Source: an uncultured archaeon (GTDB taxonomy: Archaea; Halobacteriota; Methanosarcinia; Methanosarcinales; Methanoperedenaceae). Taken from it: 35,463 bases of DNA. This document shows positions 21,206 to 33,964 of the stretch, piece after piece (the first letter of the stretch is position 1; every line of letters begins with the position of its first letter). The DNA lies in contig CABMCA010000094.1 in assembly GCA_902384525.1 (NCBI GenBank), positions 1-35,463 on the forward strand. Reading direction: 5' to 3'. A model generated the notes under the pieces. It was not told the DNA's origin and did not search any database. It saw nothing but the letters and a program-made list of their open reading frames with translations. Made by a program: the position numbers and the translations under genes.

Positions 21206-22495
21206 TTATTTGAACAGGTCGGCCTTTTCTCCCGCATCATCTGTTTTTATTACGATCTCATCGCCAGCAACTGTATATTTAAGGGGTATGGGATTGCATC
21301 CTCCTGCTTCGCCTATGGTATCAGGGTTAATAGGTGCTCCGCACCGCTTGCATATGAGCTGCTCCCCCTCCTGTACATACCCTGCAGCGCCGCACAGGGC
21401 GCAGGCATCATAAGCTACGGCAGCGCTCCCATCGCTCTTTGTCATAGCCAGAATCCTCACATTCGCTTTGCCATTGCTGCCGTGCATCGGGCAGGCTTCA
21501 CCCGCAGCGTGCTGCATATCGCAAACGTATTTATGCAAATTCCCATCAGATGCGCTTGCTGCAGAGATCTTTATCGCGCCTCCTGCTGTGCTCATTTTTT
21601 CAGGCTTTGGATCTACCCCGGACGGCAGCGCGGATATCTGGGTGCTCACGAAAGCAAATATTATAAATGCTGCTACTATGCCCACTGTGATTTTCCTGTT
21701 TCTCTCTTTACGCATAGCACCGAGCGCTTTTCTTTTTTCAATGCCTTCAATACCGTCAGTTTTTATCTGCTTCCATGGCACCATTACGAATAACACCACA
21801 AGGAAACCAAGCAAGATACCAGTGAATACAATGGAAGCCGAGTCCTTTACTAACGGACCTATGATACTCATACCGAAAGGGTTGAGAGTTATTACTCCTA
21901 CTTCCGACAACTCATGTATTCCGCCCACAATCAGTTGGAAGATTATTATAGCTAACATAACACCAGTTATCTTGAAGAACCTTCCAAGGTTCATCTTAAG
22001 GCTGCCTTTAATGAATAAGTAACCAAAAAGCGTTTCCAATGCAAAACCTACAGTTGCTTCCAAAGCAACAAAAGAATTTGTCTTTGTTATTGTTGTAGAG
22101 AGGAATAATACAATTTCTGCACCTTCTCTGTATATCATGAAAAAGGTAAGCGCAAAAACTCCTAATGCCTGCCACTTACTCAGGGCACTTTCCATGTTCT
22201 GCTCGATATCCTGCCTGATGTGCTTTGAAGTGTGTTGCATCCACAGCAGCATTGTAACTAAGAAGAACGCCGTTATGAAGTACATAAGACCCCCCATGAA
22301 ATCACTCCATTGCGTCTTAAGCATTTGAATTACTATGGCAGTCGCGATGCTTCCTACTATAGCCGCAATTATCCCGGCATATACATATTTCTTCAGCGCC
22401 TCTTTATTGGTCTTGCCAAGGTATGCAAGTATTATACCAATTACAAGCGCTGCTTCTATTCCTTCTCTTAAAGTAATTGTCAGTGTTTCAAACAT
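21206..22495 (-). CDS. FTR1-type iron permease fused to a C-terminal DUF2318 Cys-rich domain
   Basis: A 429-residue fusion. Residues 1-285 are an FTR1 permease with both REGxE iron motifs (REGIE at 10-14, REGAE at 123-127) and seven or more helices. Residues about 310-420 are a domain of the DUF2318 type, with Cys at 325, 335, 365, 368, 382, 385 and 400 and phrases 'CDMQHAAGEACPMHG', 'ACALCGAAGYV', 'ICKRCGAPIN'. Such a domain is usually a separate protein in FetM/Fit operons. ATG 22495 is chosen because GGTGAG lies four bases before it; a start 14 codons upstream has none. It heads the iron operon. Likely role: uptake of Fe(II)/Fe(III) with a redox-active outer domain. Confidence 0.9.
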   Translation of the reverse strand: MFETLTITLREGIEAALVIGIILAYLGKTNKEALKKYVYAGIIAAIVGSIATAIVIQMLKTQWSDFMGGLMYFITAFFLVTMLLWMQHTSKHIRQDIEQNMESALSKWQALGVFALTFFMIYREGAEIVLFLSTTITKTNSFVALEATVGFALETLFGYLFIKGSLKMNLGRFFKITGVMLAIIIFQLIVGGIHELSEVGVITLNPFGMSIIGPLVKDSASIVFTGILLGFLVVLFVMVPWKQIKTDGIEGIEKRKALGAMRKERNRKITVGIVAAFIIFAFVSTQISALPSGVDPKPEKMSTAGGAIKISAASASDGNLHKYVCDMQHAAGEACPMHGSNGKANVRILAMTKSDGSAAVAYDACALCGAAGYVQEGEQLICKRCGAPINPDTIGEAGGCNPIPLKYTVAGDEIVIKTDDAGEKADLFK

Positions 22496-22508
22496 TATCT
22501 CACCGTTA

Positions 22509-22522
22509 TTAGGTTTACCTAA
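22509..22522. promoter_or_regulatory. Candidate DtxR operator 1 at the FTR1 start
   Basis: TTAGGT-TT-ACCTAA, perfect six-base arms, 14-27 bases before the FTR1 ATG. The half-site TTAGGT equals the left end of the DtxR/IdeR consensus. The regulator is encoded at the far end of this operon. Confidence 0.6.
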
Positions 22523-22554
22523 TATCTTATAATGCAATAGTAGTTATTAAATAT

Positions 22555-22568: not shown

Positions 22569-22668
22569 TATTATATTTTCTGATGACCTTAGTATTAAAC
22601 AATCTTAGAGCGCAAAGGCCGCTCTGGATGAAAGAATGCTGATTTTATCCCAAACGTATTTATAATAG

Positions 22669-22694
22669 AACGTATGAACATACATACATATGTT
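22669..22694. promoter_or_regulatory. Imperfect inverted repeat over the arsR start (autoregulatory operator)
   Basis: AACGTATG, ten bases, CATATGTT: arms match at seven of eight positions. The right arm contains the arsR ATG (22690). A TATA element (TTTATAATA, about 22658-22666) is about 28 bases before the ATG, implying a leaderless transcript that a bound repressor would block. Confidence 0.55.
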
Positions 22695-23028
22695 ACATGG
22701 AGATTTAACCACTGCAAAAAAGTATTTCTTCAGCGCATTGAGCGATGAAACCAGGCTTTCAATACTCTATGCATTGAAAGAGAACGGCGGAATGTGCGTA
22801 AATGATATCTGCGAGGCGACAGGAAAAGACCAGAGTCTCATCTCGCACCATATGGCATGTCTGCGAAACTGCGGGCTTGTAAACACCGAAAAAGATGGAA
22901 AATTTGTGGTTTACTCGATAAAGAACGAGCTTATCTCACAAATTCTTGATCTTTCGGATAAGCATGTGAAGGAAATGTTTGAAGGAATTCTTTCTTGCGA
23001 GGTTGTAAAAAACAAAAGCAGGAGTTAA
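22690..23028 (+). CDS. ArsR/SmtB family metal-responsive repressor
   Basis: A 112-residue winged-helix protein. 'KKYFFSALSDETRLSILYAL' is the usual ArsR opening. Helix-turn-helix: 'VNDICEATGKDQSLISHHMACLRNCGLVNTEKDGKFVVYSI'. Cys pairs fit the metal-sensing type: MCVNDIC in the alpha3 region (the CVC-box position of ArsR/CadC), C in 'MACLRNCG', and one in 'ILSCEVV'. Ligand could be a soft metal such as Hg, Cd, Pb or As; sequence alone does not decide. It starts the operon, one base ahead of the AtwA homologue, and an inverted repeat covers its start codon. Confidence 0.9.
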   Translation: MLHGDLTTAKKYFFSALSDETRLSILYALKENGGMCVNDICEATGKDQSLISHHMACLRNCGLVNTEKDGKFVVYSIKNELISQILDLSDKHVKEMFEGILSCEVVKNKSRS

Positions 23029-23029
23029 A

Positions 23030-25144
23030 ATGGCAGCTTTAATTGAGATACGGGATTTGAGCATAAGTGCTAATGGCAAACAGATTCTCAAAAATATAAA
23101 CCTGGACATAAATGAAGGCGATAGCATCGGTATAATTGGAAAGAGCGGTGCAGGAAAAAGTACTCTTTTACATTTGCTTCGAGGTTTTGAGGAATTTGAA
23201 GATATTTCTGGCGAGGTCATATTTAACATTTCCTTGTGTCCCAAATGCGGTAAAGTAAATCCACCAGGTAATGCAGGCAAAGCGTGCTCAAAATGTGGCA
23301 TAAAAACAGAATTGAAAAGGGTGAATTATTTTAATTCGAAGGACATGCACCGGAAAATCATGGACAGGACTGCTATTATGATGCAGCGAACCTTTGGATT
23401 ATATGGCGATGAGACAGTTCTTGAGAATATCATTCACAGCTTTGAATGTTCCGATATTCCTAATGAAAAACGTCCTTATGTAGCAGCAGAATTAATAGAA
23501 AAAATGAAACTCAGCCATAGAATGACTTACACCGGGAAAGAACTCAGCGGGGGAGAGAAACAGCGCGTAGTGCTGGCAAGGCAGCTTGCGAAATACCCGA
23601 TGCTTTTGCTTGCGGATGAACCGACCGGGACACTTGATCCAAGAACTGCAAAGCTTGTGCATGACAGCATATTAAAAGCAAAACAGGAACACAACATGAC
23701 AATGCTTGTTACTTCGCATCTGCCTGGCGTTTTGCATGACCTGACAAACAAGGCGATCCTTCTGGAAAATGGAGAAATCATCGAAATAGGAAAACCGGAT
23801 GATATTATTGAAAAGTTCTCTGCAATGACAGAAGTTGTGAATGAGGGCAAAGCAGTCATCGGTGAACCGATCATTATTCTTAAGGATTTGAAGAAAAAAT
23901 ATTACTCTTATTCAAAAGGTATGATCCCTGCGGTGAATGGCGTGAACTTCGAAGTCAACGAAGGAGAAATTTTCGGTATACTGGGTATAAGCGGAGCAGG
24001 TAAAACAACACTCTCTAAAATCATAGCAGGCATTATGGAGAGAGATAGCGGAAAAGTGGATGTTAGAATCGGGGATATATGGGTTGATATGACCGAGAAA
24101 GGAACAGATTTCAGGGGACGCGCAAAACCGCATATTGGCTACTTGCATCAGGAATATTCCCTTTATCCTCACAGGAATGTATTGTCTAATCTGACCGATT
24201 CGATAGGTCTGAAACTTGAGCCTGAACTCGCAAGAACAAAAACGATTGCTGCATTGAAAGCAGTGGGCTTTGATGAAAATACAGCACATGAGATTTTAGA
24301 GAAGACATCATATGAGCTCAGCGTTGGAGAACGTCAGAGGGTGACAATGGCGCAGGTTCTCATAAGAGAACCGAGGATTATTATTTTTGACGAACCAACA
24401 GGAACGATGGACCCGATCACAAAGAACGAAGTTGCAAACTCGATACTGACAGCAAGAAAAGAGACGGGGACGACATTTGTTATAGTTTCTCACGACATGG
24501 AATTTGTCCGGAATGTTTGCGACCGCACTGCGCACATGAAGCTTGGCAAAATAACGGCGATGGGAGATGCCGGTTCGGTGCTTGAGGAAATTAAGATCGA
24601 AGAAAAAGCAGACAGGGAAAAGACTCCGCAAGACAGGAATAACGATCTGGAGAGATTTCTTAAAAGAGCACAGCAGTGTACAGATCTGAATGTTTTGAAC
24701 GATGTTGATTTTTATGTATCAAAGGCAAAGGAGACTGCCGTAAAACTCAACAAGGATATCAGCGGCGAGCTTGAAAGGCTAAAGCCAGCATATGAAAAAG
24801 GGATCTCTGAAATGCTTAAAGAAGCGGAAAAATATGCATCAGAAGGGCAAATCTATGGAATGCATGTGTATATAGAAAATGCAATAAATTATGCAGCTAA
24901 AGCAGGTATCGATATTTCAGGGGAGCTTGCGAAATTCATGCCTTCATACGAGGAAGGTCTCAAAGAGGCTTTGCAGGAAGCAGAGAAGCATGAAGCTGAA
25001 GGTTTCCTTGGAATGTCGTATCAATATATTCATAGAGCAGGAAATTATGCCGGAAAGCTTGGAAGAGACATAGAGGAAATCTTAAAATCATTACCGTGGT
25101 ATGAGAAATGGACGCTGACAGATATACATATGAAATTGAGGTGA
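23030..25144 (+). CDS. AtwA (MCR component A2) homologue with zinc ribbon and helical-repeat C-terminal extension
   Basis: A 704-residue twin ABC ATPase without membrane segments. Half 1: Walker A GKSGAGKS (37-44); zinc ribbon C70-x2-C73-x12-C86-x2-C89; LSGGEKQR (172-179); LLLADEPTGTLD. Half 2: Walker A GISGAGKT (319-326); signature LSVGERQR (430-437); IIFDEPTGTMD. The ribbon, 'MMQRTFGLYGDETVLENI' and 'LPGVLHDLTNKAILLENGEI' match canonical AtwA as I know it, the ATPase used in reductive activation of methyl-coenzyme M reductase. Unusual is the tail, residues about 525-704: three helical repeats of about 52 residues ('MLKEAEKYASEGQIYGM', 'ALQEAEKHEAEGFLGM'). RBS AGGAGTTAAA lies in the arsR end. 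Its operon with arsR, ferredoxin and MerA-like genes suggests metal or redox stress control. Confidence 0.88.
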   Translation: MAALIEIRDLSISANGKQILKNINLDINEGDSIGIIGKSGAGKSTLLHLLRGFEEFEDISGEVIFNISLCPKCGKVNPPGNAGKACSKCGIKTELKRVNYFNSKDMHRKIMDRTAIMMQRTFGLYGDETVLENIIHSFECSDIPNEKRPYVAAELIEKMKLSHRMTYTGKELSGGEKQRVVLARQLAKYPMLLLADEPTGTLDPRTAKLVHDSILKAKQEHNMTMLVTSHLPGVLHDLTNKAILLENGEIIEIGKPDDIIEKFSAMTEVVNEGKAVIGEPIIILKDLKKKYYSYSKGMIPAVNGVNFEVNEGEIFGILGISGAGKTTLSKIIAGIMERDSGKVDVRIGDIWVDMTEKGTDFRGRAKPHIGYLHQEYSLYPHRNVLSNLTDSIGLKLEPELARTKTIAALKAVGFDENTAHEILEKTSYELSVGERQRVTMAQVLIREPRIIIFDEPTGTMDPITKNEVANSILTARKETGTTFVIVSHDMEFVRNVCDRTAHMKLGKITAMGDAGSVLEEIKIEEKADREKTPQDRNNDLERFLKRAQQCTDLNVLNDVDFYVSKAKETAVKLNKDISGELERLKPAYEKGISEMLKEAEKYASEGQIYGMHVYIENAINYAAKAGIDISGELAKFMPSYEEGLKEALQEAEKHEAEGFLGMSYQYIHRAGNYAGKLGRDIEEILKSLPWYEKWTLTDIHMKLR

Positions 25145-25149
25145 AAAAT

Positions 25150-25317
25150 ATGTGCATGGTCGGAGATGTGCCCGAATTCGATATAGAAAAAATAGAAATG
25201 GATTTGAAAGAATATGTTTGCCTTGATTGCGAAAATAGATTTAAAGGACTTGGAAAAAGCATAATCTGTCCTGCCTGCAAATCCAGCAACATTGAAGTAG
25301 TGAGTGTAGAGAAATGA
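25150..25317 (+). CDS. Small zinc-ribbon/rubredoxin-like protein
   Basis: A 55-residue protein, MCMVGDVPEFDIEKIEMDLK followed by EYVCLDCENRF, GLGKSIICPACKSSNI. Two CxxC pairs form a zinc ribbon or rubredoxin-like metal site. The start at ATG 25150, with RBS GAGGTGA overlapping the stop of the ATPase gene (25142-25144), is preferred over an ATG 14 codons earlier that would overlap that gene. Its stop overlaps the next start (ATGA at 25314). Tight coupling suggests that it works with the ATPase and the ferredoxin, as electron carrier or structural partner. Confidence 0.82.
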   Translation: MCMVGDVPEFDIEKIEMDLKEYVCLDCENRFKGLGKSIICPACKSSNIEVVSVEK

Positions 25318-25601
25318 AGAGTTGCTGCTGTGAACTTGATGATGTTGCATATTATCAGGGACAAACAAAGTCAGGCGATAAATGGACTCCAGCCTTTATA
25401 GAATATGTTGATAAAGAGAAATGCAATGGCTGCGGGATGTGCGTGAAGGTATGCTCAAGAGGAGTATACGAGATCCAAGAATTAAATGGCAGGAAAATCT
25501 CAGTCGCTGTAAACACTGGTAACTGTGTTGGAGACGGGAGCTGCCACATGGTATGCAAACCGAATGCGATGGTGTGCGTACCAAGGAAAATAGAAAACTG
25601 A
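25314..25601 (+). CDS. Two-cluster ferredoxin with one Asp-type [4Fe-4S]/[3Fe-4S] site
   Basis: A 95-residue protein. N-terminus MKSCCCELDD carries three adjacent Cys. 'KWTPAFIEYVDKEKCNGCGMC' recalls the nif-associated ferredoxin III (FdxB) group. Cluster 1 has C37, C40, C43, C47 (CxxCxxCxxxC). Cluster 2 has C71, D74, C77, C81: CVGDGSCHMVCKP, with Asp replacing the second Cys exactly as in Pyrococcus furiosus ferredoxin (CxxDxxCxxxC). A low-potential electron donor is expected. Start overlaps the preceding stop by four bases, so the genes are translationally coupled to the AtwA homologue. It could feed electrons to the ATPase-driven reaction. Confidence 0.9.
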   Translation: MKSCCCELDDVAYYQGQTKSGDKWTPAFIEYVDKEKCNGCGMCVKVCSRGVYEIQELNGRKISVAVNTGNCVGDGSCHMVCKPNAMVCVPRKIEN

Positions 25602-25651
25602 ATACAGTAGCATCGATAAAATCTAAATTATATTAAAGTGAGTTGTGTGAT

Positions 25652-27040
25652 ATGGAAAAATATGATTTAATAATCATCGGCAGTGGCTCTGCTGCTTTTG
25701 GGGCGGCGATAAAAGCCGTAGATTTAGGAGCAAATGTGGCGATGGTTGAGAAAGGCACAATCGGCGGCACTTGCGTTAATGTTGGCTGCGTTCCAAGCAA
25801 GCACCTGCTTAGAGTTGGAGAAATCAACTACTATAAGAATCATGGTCATGCTGGCTTGGATGTTACTTCTTCCCTTGATTTCGCTGTCACAATAACCGAG
25901 AAAAGAGAGATTGTAGATGGATTGAGGAAGAGCAGGTATATTGATGTAATTGATGCTTCAGGGATAACTCTTCTGAGAGGGCAGGCTGTTTTTGTTTCCA
26001 AAAACGAGGTAAAGGTGAACGGCAGGACTCTACATGCTGATAAGTTCGTTATAGCCACTGGTTCCTCTCCACATATCCTTCCGTTAGAAGGTATAGACAG
26101 CGTAGATTACCTGACCAACGTAGAGGCTATGGAGCTATCCGAACTCCCTGAATCAATGATAGTGCTGGGCGGAAGGGCTATTGGTCTGGAATTCGCCCAG
26201 ATGTTTTCTCATTTTGGAACAAAAGTTACCGTGCTCCAGAGAAGTCCCAGGATAATACCTGAAGAGGAAAGCATAATCTCAGATTATCTCAAAGCCTATC
26301 TTGGGGAGGAAGGCATAAATATTCAGACCGGGGCAAATGTAAGAAGTGTCAGGAAAGAGAACGGTAATATCGTAGTAACTGCGCTTTTTGGAGAAGAAAA
26401 AAGAGAATTTAAGGCTGAAAAACTGCTGATGGCAACAGGCAGGAAGCCCAATACGAGGGATTTAGGTCTGGAAAGAGCAGGTGTTCAGGTTGATAAGAAC
26501 GGCGCAGTAATCGTGGATGATGAGATGAGAACCACATCAAATATCTGGGCAGCAGGTGATGTTATAGGCGAACCAATGCTTGAAACTGTGGCAGGCAAAG
26601 AAGGCTCAATTGCGGCTGAGAACGCCCTGGCAGATAAAGGGAAAAAGATGGACTTTTCGGCAGTGCCCCATGCCGTATTCACCATACCGCAAGTGGCGAG
26701 TGTCGGTCTGACAGAAAAGAAGGCTGAAGAAACAGGCATAACTTGCAGATGCAGCACTATCCCGATGGAACTTGTGCCAAGAGCAGTACTGGCAAAAGAT
26801 ACACGGGGACTTATCAAAATGGTGATTGATGCAAAAACCGAGCGCATAATCGGCGTGCATATAGTGGCATCGCTGGCAGCGGATATGATTCATGAAGGAG
26901 TGATTGCTGTAAAATATGGAATGACTATTGATGATATTATAGACACAGTTCATGTTTTCCCGACAATGACAGAGGCGGTAAAACTTGTGGCACAGTCCTT
27001 TAGAAAGGATATCAGCAAGATGAGCTGCTGTGCTGAATAG
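25652..27040 (+). CDS. merA: MerA-like FAD/NAD(P)H mercuric reductase-type flavoprotein
   Basis: A 462-residue pyridine nucleotide-disulfide oxidoreductase. FAD motif GSGSAAFG (10-17), redox-active pair C41/C46 in GGTCVNVGCVPSK, NAD(P) motif 'VLGGRAIGLEFAQMF', second FAD motif 'IWAAGDVIGEP', dimerisation domain with 'HVFPTMTEAVKL'. C-terminus MSCCAE: the Cys pair that binds Hg(II) in mercuric reductase. The N-terminal HMA domain common in bacterial MerA is absent; a separate HMA protein is encoded next. ATG 25652 is chosen over a TTG three codons upstream. Expected reaction: Hg(II) to Hg(0). No merB or merT is present, so another disulfide or metal substrate is possible. Confidence 0.87.
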   Translation: MEKYDLIIIGSGSAAFGAAIKAVDLGANVAMVEKGTIGGTCVNVGCVPSKHLLRVGEINYYKNHGHAGLDVTSSLDFAVTITEKREIVDGLRKSRYIDVIDASGITLLRGQAVFVSKNEVKVNGRTLHADKFVIATGSSPHILPLEGIDSVDYLTNVEAMELSELPESMIVLGGRAIGLEFAQMFSHFGTKVTVLQRSPRIIPEEESIISDYLKAYLGEEGINIQTGANVRSVRKENGNIVVTALFGEEKREFKAEKLLMATGRKPNTRDLGLERAGVQVDKNGAVIVDDEMRTTSNIWAAGDVIGEPMLETVAGKEGSIAAENALADKGKKMDFSAVPHAVFTIPQVASVGLTEKKAEETGITCRCSTIPMELVPRAVLAKDTRGLIKMVIDAKTERIIGVHIVASLAADMIHEGVIAVKYGMTIDDIIDTVHVFPTMTEAVKLVAQSFRKDISKMSCCAE

Positions 27041-27079
27041 AGCAGAAAGACGGCAATTAAACAAAAAACGAGGTGCATT

Positions 27080-27295
27080 ATGGAAAAACTGATTCTTGAT
27101 ATCGCTGGGATGCGCTGCGGAGCGTGTGCAGTGGGCATAGAGCTTATGCTCGCAAAAAAGAAAGGAATCAAAAGTGCGAAAGTATCCTTGAACGAGAAAA
27201 TGGCAGTCGTAGAATACGATCCTGCAATAGTGGGAGTATCAGACATTACAAAGGCTGTAAACGATTTCGGATATATTGCAACAACAGGAAGTTAA
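27080..27295 (+). CDS. HMA-domain metallochaperone (MerP/CopZ-like)
   Basis: A 71-residue single heavy-metal-associated domain with motif GMRCGACAVGIE (Cys14 region 'M-x-C-x2-C') and the usual beta-alpha-beta pattern ('KSAKVSLNEKMAVVEYDP', 'DITKAVNDFGY'). No signal peptide, so cytoplasmic. It lies 39 bases after the MerA-like gene (RBS GAGGTG) and can pass a soft metal ion to that enzyme or to the P1B ATPase further down. Metal identity cannot be read. Confidence 0.92.
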   Translation: MEKLILDIAGMRCGACAVGIELMLAKKKGIKSAKVSLNEKMAVVEYDPAIVGVSDITKAVNDFGYIATTGS

Positions 27296-27360
27296 AATAG
27301 GTGATTAAAAGTAAGTGAGCGATAAAATTTGAAAAATAACTATTTCAGGTAATCAAGCAT

Positions 27361-27376
27361 CATAGAGTATTCTATG
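27361..27376. promoter_or_regulatory. Inverted repeat over the NikR-like gene start
   Basis: CATAGA-GTAT-TCTATG with perfect six-base arms; its last three bases are the ATG at 27374. Suitable place for autorepression by the ribbon-helix-helix protein. The arms differ from the Escherichia coli NikR half site GTATGA. Confidence 0.35.
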
Positions 27377-27751
27377 GTAGTTATAAGCATATCACTTTCA
27401 GGCACAGAACTAAAGGAATTCGACAATATCACGAATAAGCTGGGTTTTTCCAGCCGTTCGGATGCAGTCCGTGAAGCTCTTCATAGATTCGTTGCCCAGA
27501 ATAAATGGATAGAGCATATTGACAGCTTTACTCCATTCATCGCGACTATTGTTTATGACGATAAAAGAGAACAGCCAGTACACAATATCATCCATGAATT
27601 TAAAAATATTGTAAAATCTGCAACCCACACTCATTTTGGTGACAGGTGTGCTGAATGGGTAATCCTTCAGGGAGATAATGACAGTATCAAACATTTTGTA
27701 GAACGCATATCTGCAATAAAGGATGTTATGGTCTGCCACTGTTCCGTCTGA
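27374..27751 (+). CDS. NikR-like ribbon-helix-helix metal-responsive regulator
   Basis: A 125-residue protein. Residues 1-45 form a ribbon-helix-helix ('VVISISLSGTELKEFDNI', 'SRSDAVREALHRFV'). The rest is the ACT-like metal domain. The nickel ligands of NikR have counterparts: H74, then H85-T-H87 and C92, giving H-x10-H-x-H-x4-C. Escherichia coli NikR has x5 before Cys, so the site is one residue shorter. Two extra Cys end the protein (CHCSV). It may sense Ni or another ion and control the downstream P1B ATPase, 65 bases away, or nickel supply for coenzyme F430 enzymes. Confidence 0.85.
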   Translation: MVVISISLSGTELKEFDNITNKLGFSSRSDAVREALHRFVAQNKWIEHIDSFTPFIATIVYDDKREQPVHNIIHEFKNIVKSATHTHFGDRCAEWVILQGDNDSIKHFVERISAIKDVMVCHCSV

Positions 27752-27816
27752 TTTTATTAACTTTGCACCGGTTTCTTAGCACAATCTACTTTTAAAAGCA
27801 TGTAATACAGATATGC

Positions 27817-29958
27817 ATGGTTGAGCTAAAGGACGTCGAATTAAGAGTCAAAGGCATGGACTGCCCTTCCTGCGCCATGAACGTGGAAAATGCAATCAGG
27901 AAACTGAAAGGTATCGCCGGGGTAAGTGTGGATTTCATTACTGGAAAAGCGGTGATAAAGTATGACCCGTCCCGCACCACTACATCAGAAATCAGAGAGG
28001 TTATTGAAAAAGCCGGATATAACGCTCTTGAAGATGGGAAGGATGATTATGAAGAAAGCTGTTCCTCATGTTCAACCGATATTTTTGAGGAAAAACTTCC
28101 TCTCTGGAAACAACTGAAGATACGTATTATAGCACTTTCGTCCCTGTTACTGTTTCTTGGGCTTTCCATAGAATACATAAGGGGAACAACAGCTTTATCT
28201 CACATTCTCTTCCTGTTCGCAGGAATAATTTCTGGATACAGCATAGCTAAAAAGGGCATATCTTCGCTCCTGAAAAAACGCCTGGATATGAATTTCCTGA
28301 TGACAATTGCTGCCGTTGGTGCATTTTCCATCGGCTACGGGGAAGAGGGGGCATCTGTGCTTTATCTGTTTTTTATTGCCGAGTTTTTAGAAGATTATGC
28401 AGGAGAAAGGGCGAGGAAATCTATTGGTTCTCTTGTTAAACTTGCGCCTGATACTGCCATTGTAATAAGGGATGGAAAAGAAGTCAACGTAGATGTTCAT
28501 GATGCGAAAATCAATGAAATTACAGTTGTCAGACCGGGTGAGAAAATACCTCTTGACGGATTTGTGATTAGCGGAGAGTCAAGTGTAAATCAGGCCGCTA
28601 TCACTGGAGAATCAATGCCTGTCCATAAAAAGACAGGAGATTCAGTATATGCAGGAACGCTGAATGAGCACGGATATCTTGAAATAAAAGTTTCAAAAGG
28701 GTCGCAAGACACGGTATTATCAAAAATTGTCAGGCTGGTTGAGGAGGCTGAACGAAAAAAATCCCCGACCGAGAAATTCGTTGATATATTTGCCCGTTAT
28801 TATACCCCTGCGGTGATCTTCCCGGCAGTGAGTGTGGCGATTATTCCAAGCCTTGTTTTCGGTAAGCCTTTTGATGAATGGCTTTACAAAGCCCTGGTTC
28901 TTCTGGTCATTTCCTGCCCCTGCGCCCTTGCAATTTCCACGCCTGTATCAATGGTTTCTGGAATAACAGGCGCTGCAAGGAACGGGGTCTTGATAAAAGG
29001 AGGAAATTACATAGAGGAGATGGCAAAGGCAAAGGTTTTTGTTTTTGATAAAACCGGCACATTGACTGAGGGAAGACCGGTGGTGACAGATACGATAGAA
29101 GTTAATAATTATTCATCCAGGGAGATTCTTGAGACAGCCGCATCCATAGAGGCATTATCCGAACATCCGCTGGCAAAGGCTATTGTTTTAAAATCCAGAA
29201 TCGATGGAGTGAGTTTAAAACCTGTAAGTGGATTTAAGGCTACTCCGGGCAAAGGTGTAAAAGGTGTTATAGACAAAAGCGCCTATTATATCGGCAGCCC
29301 TGTCATGTTTTCTGAGTTATCAATTCCGTTCCCGGAAGAAAAAGTCAGAAAGCTTGAAAGTGATGGTAAAACTTCAATTCTTATAGGGAACCGGGAATGT
29401 ATGGGAATTATTGCAATAATGGATAAAGTCAGGGACGCTGCGCCTGAAACCATATGCTTGTTAAAGAAAAAGGACATGCGTGTGGTGATGCTGACAGGAG
29501 ACAATGATAGAATTGCAAAGACGATAGCTAATAAGCTTGAGATTGATGAATACCATTCAAATCTCCTTCCGGAAGATAAGGTCAGGATGATCGAGGAATT
29601 GACCCAAAAATACGGTAAGGTAGTTATGATAGGCGACGGAGTGAACGATGCCCCTGCGCTGGCAAAGGCGACTGTTGGCATAGCAATGGGAGCAATCGGC
29701 AGCGATGTTGCACTTGAGACCGCCGACATAGCGCTAATGCATGATGATATATCCAAACTGCCTTATTTATTTGAACTTAGTAAAAAGACTTTTAGGATAG
29801 TTAAGCAGAATATCTTTACTTCAATTGCAGTAAAAGGAAGTTTTGCTGTTCTTGCTTTTCCTGGCATTGTGACACTCTGGATGGCTGTTGCATTTGGAGA
29901 TATGGGCCTGTCCCTGCTTGTGATAGTGAATGCGATGCGGCTGGCGGTGTTTAAATGA
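27817..29958 (+). CDS. P1B-type heavy-metal ATPase, Zn/Cd/Pb class (CadA/ZntA-like)
   Basis: A 713-residue exporter. One N-terminal HMA domain (GMDCPSCAMNVE, residues about 13-24), then a Cys cluster CSSCS near residue 80. Eight membrane helices with the transport motif SCPCALAISTP; the I-S-T-P form and 'FGDMGLSLLVIVNAMRL' in the last helix, with its Asp, point to the divalent class P1B-2. Actuator TGES, phosphorylation DKTGTLTEG, SEHPL and GDGVNDAPA are intact. Energy: ATP. Likely substrates Zn, Cd, Pb and perhaps Hg given the neighbours. ATG 27817 is preceded by a TATA-like TTTTAAAA about 25 bases before, so the gene may also have its own leaderless promoter. Confidence 0.93.
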   Translation: MVELKDVELRVKGMDCPSCAMNVENAIRKLKGIAGVSVDFITGKAVIKYDPSRTTTSEIREVIEKAGYNALEDGKDDYEESCSSCSTDIFEEKLPLWKQLKIRIIALSSLLLFLGLSIEYIRGTTALSHILFLFAGIISGYSIAKKGISSLLKKRLDMNFLMTIAAVGAFSIGYGEEGASVLYLFFIAEFLEDYAGERARKSIGSLVKLAPDTAIVIRDGKEVNVDVHDAKINEITVVRPGEKIPLDGFVISGESSVNQAAITGESMPVHKKTGDSVYAGTLNEHGYLEIKVSKGSQDTVLSKIVRLVEEAERKKSPTEKFVDIFARYYTPAVIFPAVSVAIIPSLVFGKPFDEWLYKALVLLVISCPCALAISTPVSMVSGITGAARNGVLIKGGNYIEEMAKAKVFVFDKTGTLTEGRPVVTDTIEVNNYSSREILETAASIEALSEHPLAKAIVLKSRIDGVSLKPVSGFKATPGKGVKGVIDKSAYYIGSPVMFSELSIPFPEEKVRKLESDGKTSILIGNRECMGIIAIMDKVRDAAPETICLLKKKDMRVVMLTGDNDRIAKTIANKLEIDEYHSNLLPEDKVRMIEELTQKYGKVVMIGDGVNDAPALAKATVGIAMGAIGSDVALETADIALMHDDISKLPYLFELSKKTFRIVKQNIFTSIAVKGSFAVLAFPGIVTLWMAVAFGDMGLSLLVIVNAMRLAVFK

Positions 29959-30128: not shown

Positions 30129-30728
30129 CTATATCCTGGCTACCATCTTAGTGTATTTCTTCTCAAACTCGCCCTGGCATGTAGTGCAGCAAAAGAAATA
30201 GTCTTTGTCATCGAATTTCTTTCTTACTGCATCTCCTGTCACTTTCTTTTCGCAATAAGAACAGGTCAATATTATGCTAGAGGACGCGAGCGGGATAGTT
30301 GACCCCTTTGCGAATGCATTTTTTACTGATAATATACGGATGTTATTTACATCAGTAAGATCTATTTTCTCCTGTATCGCAAGAATCCGCTGCATATCCC
30401 CTGCTACTCTTGATACGATGGCTGTGTCAGAATCAGAGGTTACATACAGTTCCTTAACTTCTTCAATCCCCCGGAGTTCTTCAGTTATCCTCCTGACAGC
30501 GCCTGGCTTTGCATTTACAAGGAGTATCGCTTCTGTTATCCCCAGCTTACTGTTGTCGATATCTATTGTGAATTTATTGATAATCCCGAGTTCAAGCATC
30601 CTGTCCACACGGCTCTTGACCGTGGGAACGCTTGTAAGACACCGCTTTGCGATCTCCTGGAATGATTCCCTGCTATTGCTCTGCAAATGTGCCAATATCT
30701 TTACATCGAGATTGTCCAGTTCTATCAT
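30129..30728 (-). CDS. Lrp/AsnC-type regulator with C-terminal TRASH metal-sensing domain (CopR/CopT-like)
   Basis: A 199-residue regulator. N-terminal helix-turn-helix 'LDVKILAHLQSNSRESFQEI' and 'SVPTVKSRVDRMLELGII', then an Lrp effector-type alpha/beta domain (about residues 65-140). The C-terminal TRASH motif is CSYC ... FFCCTTCQGEF, with C-x2-C and C-x3-C, a copper or soft-metal site known in archaeal copper regulators. It is the third gene of the copA unit, 25 bases after a small membrane-protein gene, and probably controls copA. Confidence 0.9.
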   Translation of the reverse strand: MIELDNLDVKILAHLQSNSRESFQEIAKRCLTSVPTVKSRVDRMLELGIINKFTIDIDNSKLGITEAILLVNAKPGAVRRITEELRGIEEVKELYVTSDSDTAIVSRVAGDMQRILAIQEKIDLTDVNNIRILSVKNAFAKGSTIPLASSSIILTCSYCEKKVTGDAVRKKFDDKDYFFCCTTCQGEFEKKYTKMVARI

Positions 30729-30753
30729 ATAGATATTTACAAGGGGTGTAAAC

Positions 30754-30996
30754 TTAAGTATTTTGTGGTAAATTCTTGAGTTTCTTTAGCCTTTTTTCAA
30801 TTACTCCAGGCCATATCGAAGCCGATACTATCATCGAAAGAATGAACACATAAACCATCCCCGCATACACATCGGTATAACTGTATTGAGTGGATGGGCC
30901 AACTTTCTGAATAGCAGATATATAAAATAATACTACGATCAATATCGATGTTACCGTACTTGCTATTATGCTATAAAATCCAGTTTTATTCTCCAT
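30754..30996 (-). CDS. Small two-helix membrane protein in the copA operon
   Basis: An 80-residue protein with helices at about 8-28 ('YSIIASTVTSILIVVLFYIS') and 45-65 ('AGMVYVFILSMIVSASIWP'), then a basic tail EKRLKKLKNLPQNT. No Cys, His-rich or Met-rich motif, so a direct copper ligand role is not visible. It is nine bases after copA and 25 before the TRASH regulator, so surely cotranscribed. Not recognised as a family. Confidence 0.7.
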   Translation of the reverse strand: MENKTGFYSIIASTVTSILIVVLFYISAIQKVGPSTQYSYTDVYAGMVYVFILSMIVSASIWPGVIEKRLKKLKNLPQNT

Positions 30997-31005
30997 ATTT
31001 CACCT

Positions 31006-33765
31006 TTAAAGCTTTATCCTCTTCATCAAAAGCGTGTTCAATGTCACGGAAACCGAGCTTGTAGCCATTGCGGCTGCGGCTATAGCTGGATCCAGTAAGA
31101 ATGGTTTGTCTGTTAATGGGTTAGTATATGTATATAGAATTCCTGCAGCTATGGGTATTCCCACAGCGTTATAGAAGAAAGCCCAGAACAGGTTCTGCTT
31201 TATCTTGTTCAATGTAAGTCTGCTAAGGCGTATGGCCTTTGCCACATCGCGCACGTCGCTCTTTATCAGGACAATTTGTGCCGACTCGATCGCAACATCT
31301 GTACCGCTTCCGATAGCGATACCAACATCAGACTGCATGAGAGCTGGCGCATCATTAATGCCATCGCCGACCATCGCCACTTTTTTCCCTTCGGCCTGGA
31401 GTTTCTTTATTTGTGTTGCTTTTTCCTCTGGCAGCACTTCTGATAATACAATGTCGATACCCACCTGTTTTGCGATCGCATCAGCAGTACGCCTGTTATC
31501 TCCTGTGATCATGGCGACCGTAAATCCCATCTTATGAAGTTCGCTCACTGCTTGTTTTGAATGCTCTTTCAATGTATCCGCAACAGCGATCATTCCAACT
31601 ATTTCATTACCGGATGACACAAGCATGGCAGTTTTCCCCCGGGTTTCGAGTTCTTCCATCCTGCTATTTACTGGTTTGATGTCCATATTGTTCTCAGTCA
31701 TCAGTTTTCGTGTGCCAACAAGGACTCGCTTTCCACCGGATTTTACTTCTATTCCTCTTCCCGGAATTGCCTTGAAGCTCTCTGCATCAGGGATTTCAAT
31801 ACCACGTTCTTTTGCGCCTTTCAAAATAGCCTCACCAAGCGGATGCTCCGATCCTTTTTCAGCAATAGCAGCAAGTGTCAGGATTTCAACCTCTGTTCCT
31901 TTAATGGCTATTACATCAGTGAGAGAAGGCTCACCTTTTGTAAGCGTTCCTGTCTTATCAAATACAATAGTATCAAGTTTCTGCGCACGCTCAAGCGCCT
32001 CACCGCCCTTTATAAGAATACCGTTCTCGGCTCCTTTTCCTGTGCCCACCATTATCGCAGTAGGTGTGGCAAGTCCCACGGCGCATGGGCATGAGATGAT
32101 CAGGACTGTTATGGATATCAATAGCGAGAAAAGGAATGGTGAAGTCATTCCCATCCCGAAAGTTGCGGGAACATTGAAATATTCAAATCCGATAAAGAAC
32201 CAGAAAAAGAATGTTAGAAGCGCAAGCACATGGACTGCAAGAATGAAATGCCCTGCAACAATATCAGCAAGTTTCTGGATCGGTGCTTTCTGGGTCTGTG
32301 CGTCTTCTACTAATTTGATTATCTGGGCAAGAGCTGTATCTGCTCCAACTTTTGTGGCCGTGAATTTTATCATCCCGGTCTTGTTCATTGTGGCGCCGAT
32401 AACTTCTGAGCCTGCCGTTTTTTCAACAGGTATGCTCTCCCCTGTCAGCATTGATTCATCAATTGCAGTAAGACCCTCCAATACTTTGCCATCAACCGGT
32501 ATTTTCTCTCCAGGTCTTACGATCACCACGTCATTGACCGTGACATTTTCCACAGGGATCTCTTTTTCTTCACCATTCACAAGAATTCGGGCTGTCTTTG
32601 CACGTAGACCCATCAGCTTCCTTATCGCCTCGGAAGTTTTTCCTTTGGTTAGCGCCTCAAGATACCGTCCCAGCACTATGAACATGATAAGAAGCGCAGC
32701 AGTATCGTAATAGGTATGTTTGTATGCTTCACCAAGGTCAAGGAAAGTTGCTGCGGCGCTAATGACATACGCAGCTCCCGTCCCTGTTGCGATCAGGAGG
32801 TTCATGTCAGTGACGCCGTGTTTTAAACCTTTGTATGTACCCTCGAAGAACTGGCGTCCCGGAAATAGCATTACGATTGTTGCAAGAATAAATAGCAAGT
32901 AATCGTTTTTCAGTATTTCGGGAACAAATTCCCAGCGAAGGTTTCGTCCCATATCGCCAAGTGAAATGGGAATTGCAAGAACCAGCGCGATTATGAAATT
33001 AATCTTCTGTCTTTTTATCTCTGACTCTCTTGCTCTTTGCTCTCTGTCAGCCTCTGTCTTATCAACTTTTTCAGATGCTGTATAACCCACATTTTCAATG
33101 ACTTTTTTTATTTCCGGGATTGAAACTATTCCAGGATCATAATTGATCTTTGCCTGCTCAAGAGGAAAACTCACATTTGCAGAGGTTATCCCGTTTGTTT
33201 TCTTAAGGGCGGTTTCTATATTAAGAGCGCATGAAGCACAGTGCATCCCCCCTATTTTTAACGTGATCTCCTGTTTTGCAACCCCGTATCCGATGCCTGC
33301 AATAGCGGTTTCAAAAGCTGCCGGGTTCACCTTTCCCGGATCATACTCGATCGTTGCTTTTTCAACAGAGAAATTGACTGTTGCTTTTTTCACCCCGTCT
33401 ATCTTATTAAGAACTTTCTCGATATTCTGGGCACATGATGCGCATGTCATTCCTGTAAGTTTCAAAGTGGTTTTTTGTATTCCGCCGGATTTAATTTCTT
33501 TTTTCACTAATGGCAAAGTGACAGCCTGTTTAAGAGGTACAGGGCATGCTTCTTCTTCATCGATGACCTCATACCCGGATGCTATGATAGCTTTTTTTAT
33601 AGATTCAAGATCTGTAATAGAAGTATCATACGAAACCAAAACCTGTCCTTTTTTATAATCCGATAAGGCTTTTGTTACACCTTTAACACTCTTTGCTGCT
33701 TCACTGACCGTTTTTTCACAGTGTCCGCACATCATGCCTTTGATTTTTATCAAAACGTTTTCCAA
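31006..33765 (-). CDS. copA: Copper-exporting P1B-1 ATPase with three HMA domains
   Basis: A 919-residue ATPase. Three N-terminal HMA domains: GMMCGHC, GMTCASC and GMHCASC. Eight helices carry the Cu(I) signatures [11 protein letters not shown], '[13 protein letters not shown]' and the last-helix '[11 protein letters not shown]'. [22 protein letters not shown] and GDGINDAPA are intact. It exports cytoplasmic Cu(I). The TTG at 33765 is chosen as start because AGGAG lies eight bases before it; the ATG 11 codons upstream has no RBS and adds a basic tail. Domain 1 is separated from the other two by a linker of about 30 residues. It is followed by a small membrane protein and a TRASH regulator. 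Confidence 0.95.
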
Positions 33766-33964
33766 TTTAATTCTCCTGGGTTTTTTGAATTTATGCAATA
33801 ATTATAATACTTCAATTATCTCTATCTTTTATGTTTGTTTTGGTTAAAATATTGAAACTTTTTGATGCAGATTATTGTTTAATAATAAAATCAAAGCTTG
33901 AACTCTTGCAGAACGTAAAATGAACCGGAAAAGAATAAATGTGAAAAATTTAAAGGAAAATGTT

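Follow-up and report, generated by a model that had tools for sequence, protein, structure and literature searches.

A mercury-resistance operon with a second component-A2-type ATPase suggests that Methanoperedens-type archaea may restart their methane enzyme after metal poisoning

Activation of methyl-coenzyme M reductase (MCR) requires reduced ferredoxin and ATP (PMC3087415). In the work on component A2 (8s7v, 9h1l; PMC12176620), P396 and F399 are reported to hold an unfolded helix of McrA, docking on McrG is by way of positive residues, and the physiological route of MCR reduction is left open, with ferredoxin a possible donor and extra factors perhaps needed. Duplication of the gene for component A2, atwA, is already known, Methanothermobacter genomes carrying two or three copies (PMC3087415). 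Here we describe a gene cluster in which a second component-A2-type ATPase, AtwA2, stands between an ArsR-family regulator and a mercuric reductase. The cluster lies on contig C94 (CABMCA010000094.1) of a 2.9 Mb genome of Methanoperedens type (anaerobic methanotrophic archaea group 2d, ANME-2d); the whole contig, 35,463 nucleotides (nt) long, was analyzed and is called the window below. The make-up of the cluster suggests that these archaea may restart their methane enzyme after metal poisoning and, if this is true, mercury toxicity would be linked to methane oxidation.

AtwA2 is like component A2 in its two ABC domains, ATP sites, Zn-loop cysteines and fold, and differs from it by P396E/D, E394K, other fixed residues, a helical tail of about 175 residues and its arsR/mer context. 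With mer operons and the archaeal MerA clade K15 (PMC8261052) the cluster shares a MerA scoring over the family cut-off and, in some relatives, MerB. The regulator leading it is, however, ArsR and not MerR, and an ATPase, a zinc ribbon and an iron-sulfur (FeS) protein lie between regulator and merA; a term search gave no "ArsR" in the main text of PMC8261052. ArsR-type control of a mercury-related gene pair including a ferredoxin is likewise described for hgcAB (PMC10349881), but the atwA2 cluster has no HgcA gene, and its ferredoxin reaches 28.7 bits against a cut-off of 99 for the HgcB model NF040864. Second AtwA copies of other methanogens are, as here, additional to an mmp-linked AtwA; unlike AtwA2, the nine examined retain P396 and a short C-terminus. 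In the literature searched (preprints and most subscription papers were outside its scope) we recognized no account of a metal-resistance operon that includes an AtwA, and a term search found no MCR activation terms in PMC9012536. The cluster bears on the route by which cells reduce MCR: it supplies a candidate electron donor and a putatively inducible entry point, and its P396E and E394K changes make AtwA2 a naturally occurring latch-site variant of A2.

The cluster and its conservation in relatives

What relatives have in common is the unit arsR-atwA2-ribbon-FeS protein, behind which merB/merA usually stand, intact or as remnants; HMA-nikR-P1B is attached to it more loosely. In the window the order, all on the + strand, is arsR-atwA2-zinc ribbon-ferredoxin-merA-HMA-nikR-P1B, with the following features.

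22659..22694, + strand: arsR promoter/operator, with a TATA-like TTTATAAT at 22659-22666 and an imperfect palindrome AACATACATACATATGTT at 22677-22694
22690..23028, + strand: arsR, ArsR/SmtB metalloregulator with C36, C41, C57, C61 and C103
23030..25144, + strand: atwA2, component-A2-type double ABC ATPase of 704 residues, with a Zn-ribbon loop; its E397 corresponds to P396 of Methanococcus maripaludis
24614..25141, + strand: C-terminal extension of AtwA2, residues 529-704, predicted helical hairpins
25150..25317, + strand: small zinc-ribbon protein of 55 residues, starting at the conserved start codon
25314..25601, + strand: Asp-type two-cluster ferredoxin with a Cys-rich N-terminus, MKSCCC
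25643..27040, + strand: merA, mercuric reductase with a GGTCVNVGC motif and a C-terminal CC
27080..27295, + strand: HMA-domain metal chaperone with CxxC (PF00403)
27374..27751, + strand: NikR-like ribbon-helix-helix regulator (NikR_C, PF08753)
27817..29958, + strand: P1B heavy-metal ATPase with an N-terminal HMA domain and CPC and DMG motifs

Gene calls and profile matches agree with the eight-gene, same-strand order and the families read by the first-pass annotation. The ArsR protein matches NF033788 at 93.5 bits (cut-off 55), AtwA2 the equivalog TIGR03269 at 730.7 bits (517.1), MerA the equivalog TIGR02053 at 582.2 bits (454.45) and the P1B ATPase TIGR01512 at 515.6 bits (313.5); the ferredoxin was assigned to Fer4, and the Pfam matches of the zinc-ribbon protein were weak, all under cut-off. 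We take the CPC and DMG motifs of the ATPase to be marks of the P1B-2 type. The tight spacing that had been reported for the first four genes is also confirmed. Gaps of 1 nt and 5 nt separate arsR from atwA2 and atwA2 from the ribbon, the latter taking Met 25150 as the ribbon start (it is kept in relatives; an alternative start at 25108 would overlap atwA2), the ribbon and ferredoxin genes overlap by 4 nt, and 41 nt separate ferredoxin and merA.

Of 35 loci obtained by scanning genome contigs, 20 encode distant ABC proteins and 15 are relatives that bear the unit (L014-L028), their sources being Methanoperedens or unclassified archaea close to that genus. The zinc ribbon lies directly 3' of atwA2 in 15 of the 15 loci and arsR directly 5' of it in 14, the contig of L022 beginning inside atwA2. 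Spacing measured across the 14 other loci is 1-3 nt for arsR-atwA2 and 4-7 nt for atwA2-ribbon, and because these values recur the arrangement is not due to chance. The FeS slot holds an Asp-type ferredoxin in ten loci and a CopZ-type protein in five (L015, L017, L022, L024, L026; that of L017 matches NF047645 at 130 bits, cut-off 100), and both kinds share a short leader of MK or MN, zero to two residues and then CC.

Intact merA lies nearby in 7/15 loci and remnants in 4/15 (L015, L024, L025, L026), three of the four genomes with remnants (G002, G003, G012) holding an intact merA elsewhere; merA was not seen in L014, L016, L019 and L027, although the contigs of L014, L016 and L019 run out within about 2.3 kb. 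There were merB matches in five loci (full length in L020, L023 and L025, broken or truncated in L015 and L024) and none within the window. With merA or its remnants in 11 of 15 loci and merB in five, the cluster can be called a mercury-resistance operon, which narrows to mercury a metal context that had been proposed more broadly. The array as far as P1B recurs in L020, with merB added, and in G004, there with a truncated atwA2. Linkage thus reaches beyond one genome, and a chance neighborhood is ruled out by the 15 loci and a survey of 34 genomes of the family; of the composition first proposed, the core of arsR, atwA2, ribbon and FeS protein is conserved, while HMA-nikR-P1B proved only loosely attached. 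Across the 34 genomes, 14 have both merA and atwA2, three merA only, five atwA2 only and 12 neither (Fisher p 0.005, with partial genes counted as present, merA taken at 70% identity or more, and kinship ignored by the statistics).

The AtwA2 ATPase and its regulator

The host genome has a single mcrA match and two AtwA-equivalog proteins over the TIGR03269 cut-off. The one that is not AtwA2, here AtwA1 (542 residues), is encoded on C112 beside a gene that is probably mmp3, so AtwA2 is not the sole canonical AtwA, as the annotation had allowed it might be. AtwA2 is 53.6% identical to AtwA1 across residues 1-526. In a tree of AtwA proteins (77 rows, 23 thinned, with one distant outgroup row), AtwA2 forms a single clade (100/100) outside the Methanosarcinia clade that holds AtwA1 (96/92), which rules out a recent copy of the local AtwA1. 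AtwA2 joins the deeper tree by a long branch at an open fork, with a single distant outgroup row, so that its origin is placed only loosely; a scan of viral contigs gave no relative that would point to a virus. No AtwA outside the family matched residues 1-704 among the matches listed from 237 class and 390 phylum genomes, scored at up to four and up to two candidates per genome, respectively.

Across an alignment of 38 chosen AtwAs, the Walker A and B, signature and H-loop positions of the two ATP sites do not vary. For the remaining positions, 14 AtwA2 sequences were set against 62 other AtwAs, namely 53 first copies, M. maripaludis A2 among them, plus nine second copies, so labeled from gene context; shortened copies (L027, L028 and others) were left out and L022, which lacks the first 22 residues, was kept. 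All five conserved Cys columns of the Zn-loop in the first ABC domain are kept in the 14 AtwA2. Of the 27 conserved basic columns, a type of residue that serves McrG docking (PMC12176620), 24 are retained, and at two of the other three M. maripaludis A2 has no basic residue either. AtwA2 carries a different, fixed residue at nine of the 156 columns conserved among the others: H65N, D97N (12/14), L136F (13/14), H165Y, R168K, R295K, P396E/D, H435Q and A438T. At this rate the chance of hitting one latch position named a priori is about 6%. Position 399 is uninformative, since F occurs only in M. maripaludis and L in AtwA2 and all others. The AtwA identity first assigned holds for the ATP sites, Zn-loop cysteines and most basic residues, and does not extend to the latch proline. 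On these residues, AtwA2 could be an A2 that still docks on McrG but treats the latch differently, or one that has moved on.

An AlphaFold2 model of AtwA2 (mean predicted local distance difference test score, pLDDT, 84.6) matched chain 8s7v_K, the A2 of the activation complex, over 520 residues with Z 32.8 and a root-mean-square deviation of 2.9, which is 4.9 Z units over the next chain, a single-domain match. The tail (residues 529-704) was modeled with a mean pLDDT of 90.7, and the end of its sequence is strongly conserved. Its profile was present in 3 of 390 phylum genomes, all of the Methanoperedens-type genus. It had no Pfam or NCBIfam match, Foldseek gave nothing at E 0.001 or better, and its best VIA Z of 9.1 is inside the range of common helical arrangements. 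Median ratios of nonsynonymous to synonymous substitution rates (dN/dS) were 0.07 for arsR (n=13), 0.08 for the ATPase part of AtwA2 and 0.15 for its tail (n=13), 0.08 for the ribbon (n=8), 0.10 for the ferredoxin (n=5) and 0.09 for merA (n=7). Judged by these ratios the tested genes are all under purifying selection, the tail least so.

A TATA-like stretch is common to the upstream regions of arsR. All 16 regions compared (window, L014-L021, L023-L028 and L114) also carry GAACATANNTACATATGTT, which takes in the start codon of arsR, one of them with a single mismatch. A repressor on this palindrome would block a near-leaderless transcript. The host genome has one exact match to GAACATANNTACATATGTT and no other exact site that could be a second operator; one site with two mismatches lies on C18, and the reversed control also gave one. 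Cysteines C36, C41, C57, C61 and C103 of ArsR are invariant (16/16). Residues 45-84 align with residues 45-84 of CmtR (PDB 2jsc) in the alignment table. The protein is not filed as CmtR, because it scores 44.6 bits against the cut-off of 150 for the equivalog NF047906, and CadC outscores CmtR in the full-length comparison. C57 and C61 coincide with CmtR positions that we take to be Cd/Pb ligands. By these sequence features ArsR is likely a soft-metal sensor, and together with the start-codon palindrome its invariant cysteines agree with the metal-inducible design suggested at first.

Candidate function and competing explanations

An A2 with one FeS carrier and a metal-type regulator, joined to merA, makes MCR activation or reactivation around soft-metal stress the simplest reading, and the adjacency of an A2-type ATPase and a ferredoxin supports it, since MCR activation uses reduced ferredoxin and ATP. 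We favor it with somewhat less than even confidence: the cluster would be a soft-metal-induced, ferredoxin-fed helper of MCR (re)activation, with altered MCR contacts, placed in a mercury-resistance operon. We infer its co-transcription, inducing metal, MCR target, ferredoxin electron flow and tail role as follows. The trigger would be a soft metal, most likely Hg but perhaps Cd or Pb, that releases the cysteine-rich ArsR from the start-codon palindrome, and arsR, atwA2, zinc ribbon, ferredoxin and merA would then be expressed together. MerA, plus MerB in some relatives, would lower the metal level, and AtwA2, as a metal-inducible second component A2, would spend ATP on MCR in which Ni(I)-F430 or the FeS relay had been oxidized or blocked by the metal. 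Low-potential electrons would come from the ferredoxin or from the CopZ-type protein that takes its place, and the helical tail of AtwA2 may recruit a partner.

A number of observations weigh against such a helper. Position P396 of M. maripaludis is E or D in 14/14 AtwA2 and P in 62/62 others, E394, acidic in at least 95% of other AtwAs, is K in 14/14, and 22 of 29 conserved acidic columns are kept; with the changes at 396 and 394 AtwA2 may be unable to grip the McrA latch in its own cell. AtwA2 also forms a long separate branch and is patchy, being full or nearly full length in 15/34 family genomes and partial in four (G004, G005, G019, G033), contig ends cutting G033 and, among the nearly full, G015. 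Five copies are shortened (G004, G005, G019, G032 and the second copy of G007), and merA has decayed beside an intact core in four loci. McrC was matched by no operon gene. The ferredoxin is present in G006 and G014 without operon-type arsR and atwA2, and its nearest outside relatives, in family f5, stand in an arsenic-type cluster in three of four genomes (L152-L154; L155 is contig-cut).

A change of target is suggested above all by the altered latch loop. For this reason we keep as the main rival, possible though rather unlikely, an AtwA-lineage ATPase that was retargeted and uses ATP to gate low-potential electrons, drawn from the ferredoxin or the CopZ-type protein, into another metal enzyme or into metal detoxification itself. 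Such an ATPase would account for the lost latch proline, which the nine second-copy AtwAs elsewhere all retain, the charge reversal two residues off, the private conserved tail, the CopZ-type protein in five of 15 FeS slots and the arsenic-type setting of the outside ferredoxin relatives where their context is visible. It fits less well with only nine of 156 conserved columns being fixed-different and with the retention of most basic columns and the Zn-loop cysteines, and no candidate target gene was seen travelling with AtwA2. A further reading, to which we give a similarly doubtful place, would make AtwA2 a second kind of ATP-driven low-potential machine that docks like A2 without latching McrA, recruits a partner by its tail, takes a swappable FeS donor and is induced by soft metals, repairing MCR or another enzyme.

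The intact ATP-site residues and Zn-loop cysteines would also suit a plain metal-inducible spare that replaces an AtwA1 with a damaged Zn loop, and genomes with multiple AtwAs are common among the matches listed for the 390 phylum genomes, Methanothermobacter being a published case (PMC3087415). The unique fixed substitutions and the constraint on a private tail speak against so simple a role, which we consider improbable. The patchy presence, the shortened copies and the decay of merA would be expected of a divergent atwA caught by history in a metal-resistance cassette and now drifting there; low dN/dS, a constant order with gaps of 1-7 nt in the loci measured and a conserved operator-like site leave this very improbable.

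Two gene families bear on the MCR helper that we favor. The second cluster of the ferredoxin, C-x2-D-x2-C-x3-C, occurs in ten Methanoperedens-type ferredoxins and in the f5 relative L153. The four f5 genomes (probably Methanosarcinaceae) carry ferredoxin relatives of 61-62% identity, and the neighbors in L152-L154 are genes of ArsR-like and DUF6951 type and one for an SBF-family permease, presumably of the ACR3 kind (Pfam models were run on L152 and L153). The operon ferredoxin family accompanies metal(loid) genes with or without AtwA, and the arsenic-type setting of its outside relatives means that the ferredoxin may serve metal handling and not MCR; against the nif-specific ferredoxin III model TIGR02936 it reached 53.2 bits (cut-off 80.55). 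The McrC family, PF04609, has two matches, one strong and one weak, in 28/34 family genomes, three in G023 (the third apparently a gene split over two contigs), one in G018 and none in G015, G021, G025 and G033, which are 63-77% complete. This complement is equal with and without AtwA2, which rules out an extra McrC-family partner; AtwA2 must therefore draw on the common machinery of activation or do without it.

Shortened copies, neighboring genes and other AtwA loci

The ferredoxin is kept beside all five shortened atwA2 copies and merA beside three. In G004 residues ~1-324 are gone, G005 lacks several parts of atwA2 together with the arsR start and most of the ribbon, and in-frame losses removed residues ~363-423 in G019 and ~135-493 in the second copy of G007. 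In G032, from another genus of the family, arsR-ferredoxin-merA is kept and 46 atwA2-matching codons remain, reading in frame into the zinc-ribbon end; the unit thus predates the split of the genera or was exchanged. At L114, L096, L097, L098 and L100, parts of atwA2 are deleted in place with the flanks kept, in three of them in frame, and at the L114 junction the Walker A region runs into the zinc ribbon. Because downstream starts overlap upstream stops, in-frame loss may be favored. A second MerA, 77% identical, lies elsewhere in the host genome at G000:C53:13299-14684 (L113), with neither arsR nor atwA2 in the 12 kb around it.

Relatives of the zinc ribbon occur in 163/237 class genomes, and in five of seven loci (L158, L159, L160, L162, L165) they adjoin a similar open reading frame of 150-180 residues, two copies of which were scanned and gave no Pfam or NCBIfam match. 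In the window the gene that diverges from arsR (21206-22537, - strand) codes for an FTR1 permease carrying an FtrD-like domain. Three relatives (L026, L096, L097) likewise have FTR1 matches on that side of arsR, so metal uptake may share the control region. At 30129-33798 (- strand), an AsnC/Lrp-type regulator with a C-terminal TRASH domain lies near a copper-type P1B ATPase that carries several HMA-like repeats, likely a separate copper unit.

Six of the nine second AtwA copies elsewhere adjoin MRP/NifX-like genes, as judged by eye. Among second AtwAs, those of family f13 (L167, L169, L171, L172; apparently Methanocella-like) adjoin MRP/NBP35-like ATPase, NifX-like and helix-turn-helix genes, with a NuoD/FpoD-like subunit also near in L167 and L172; models were applied to L169 and L167, with matches below cut-off, and the rest was read by eye. 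These may possibly be a further AtwA system tied to FeS-cluster trafficking. The extra AtwA of G021 (L095:2062-4454) lies behind two PF02579 (FeMo-cofactor family) genes and MRP-like frames, as in f13. Around that of G030 (L093:6362-12769), at a distance of 2-4 kb, stand an ArsR-like gene and genes for an HGD-D protein and a BcrAD/BadFG ATPase, the last being another ATP-driven low-potential electron system.

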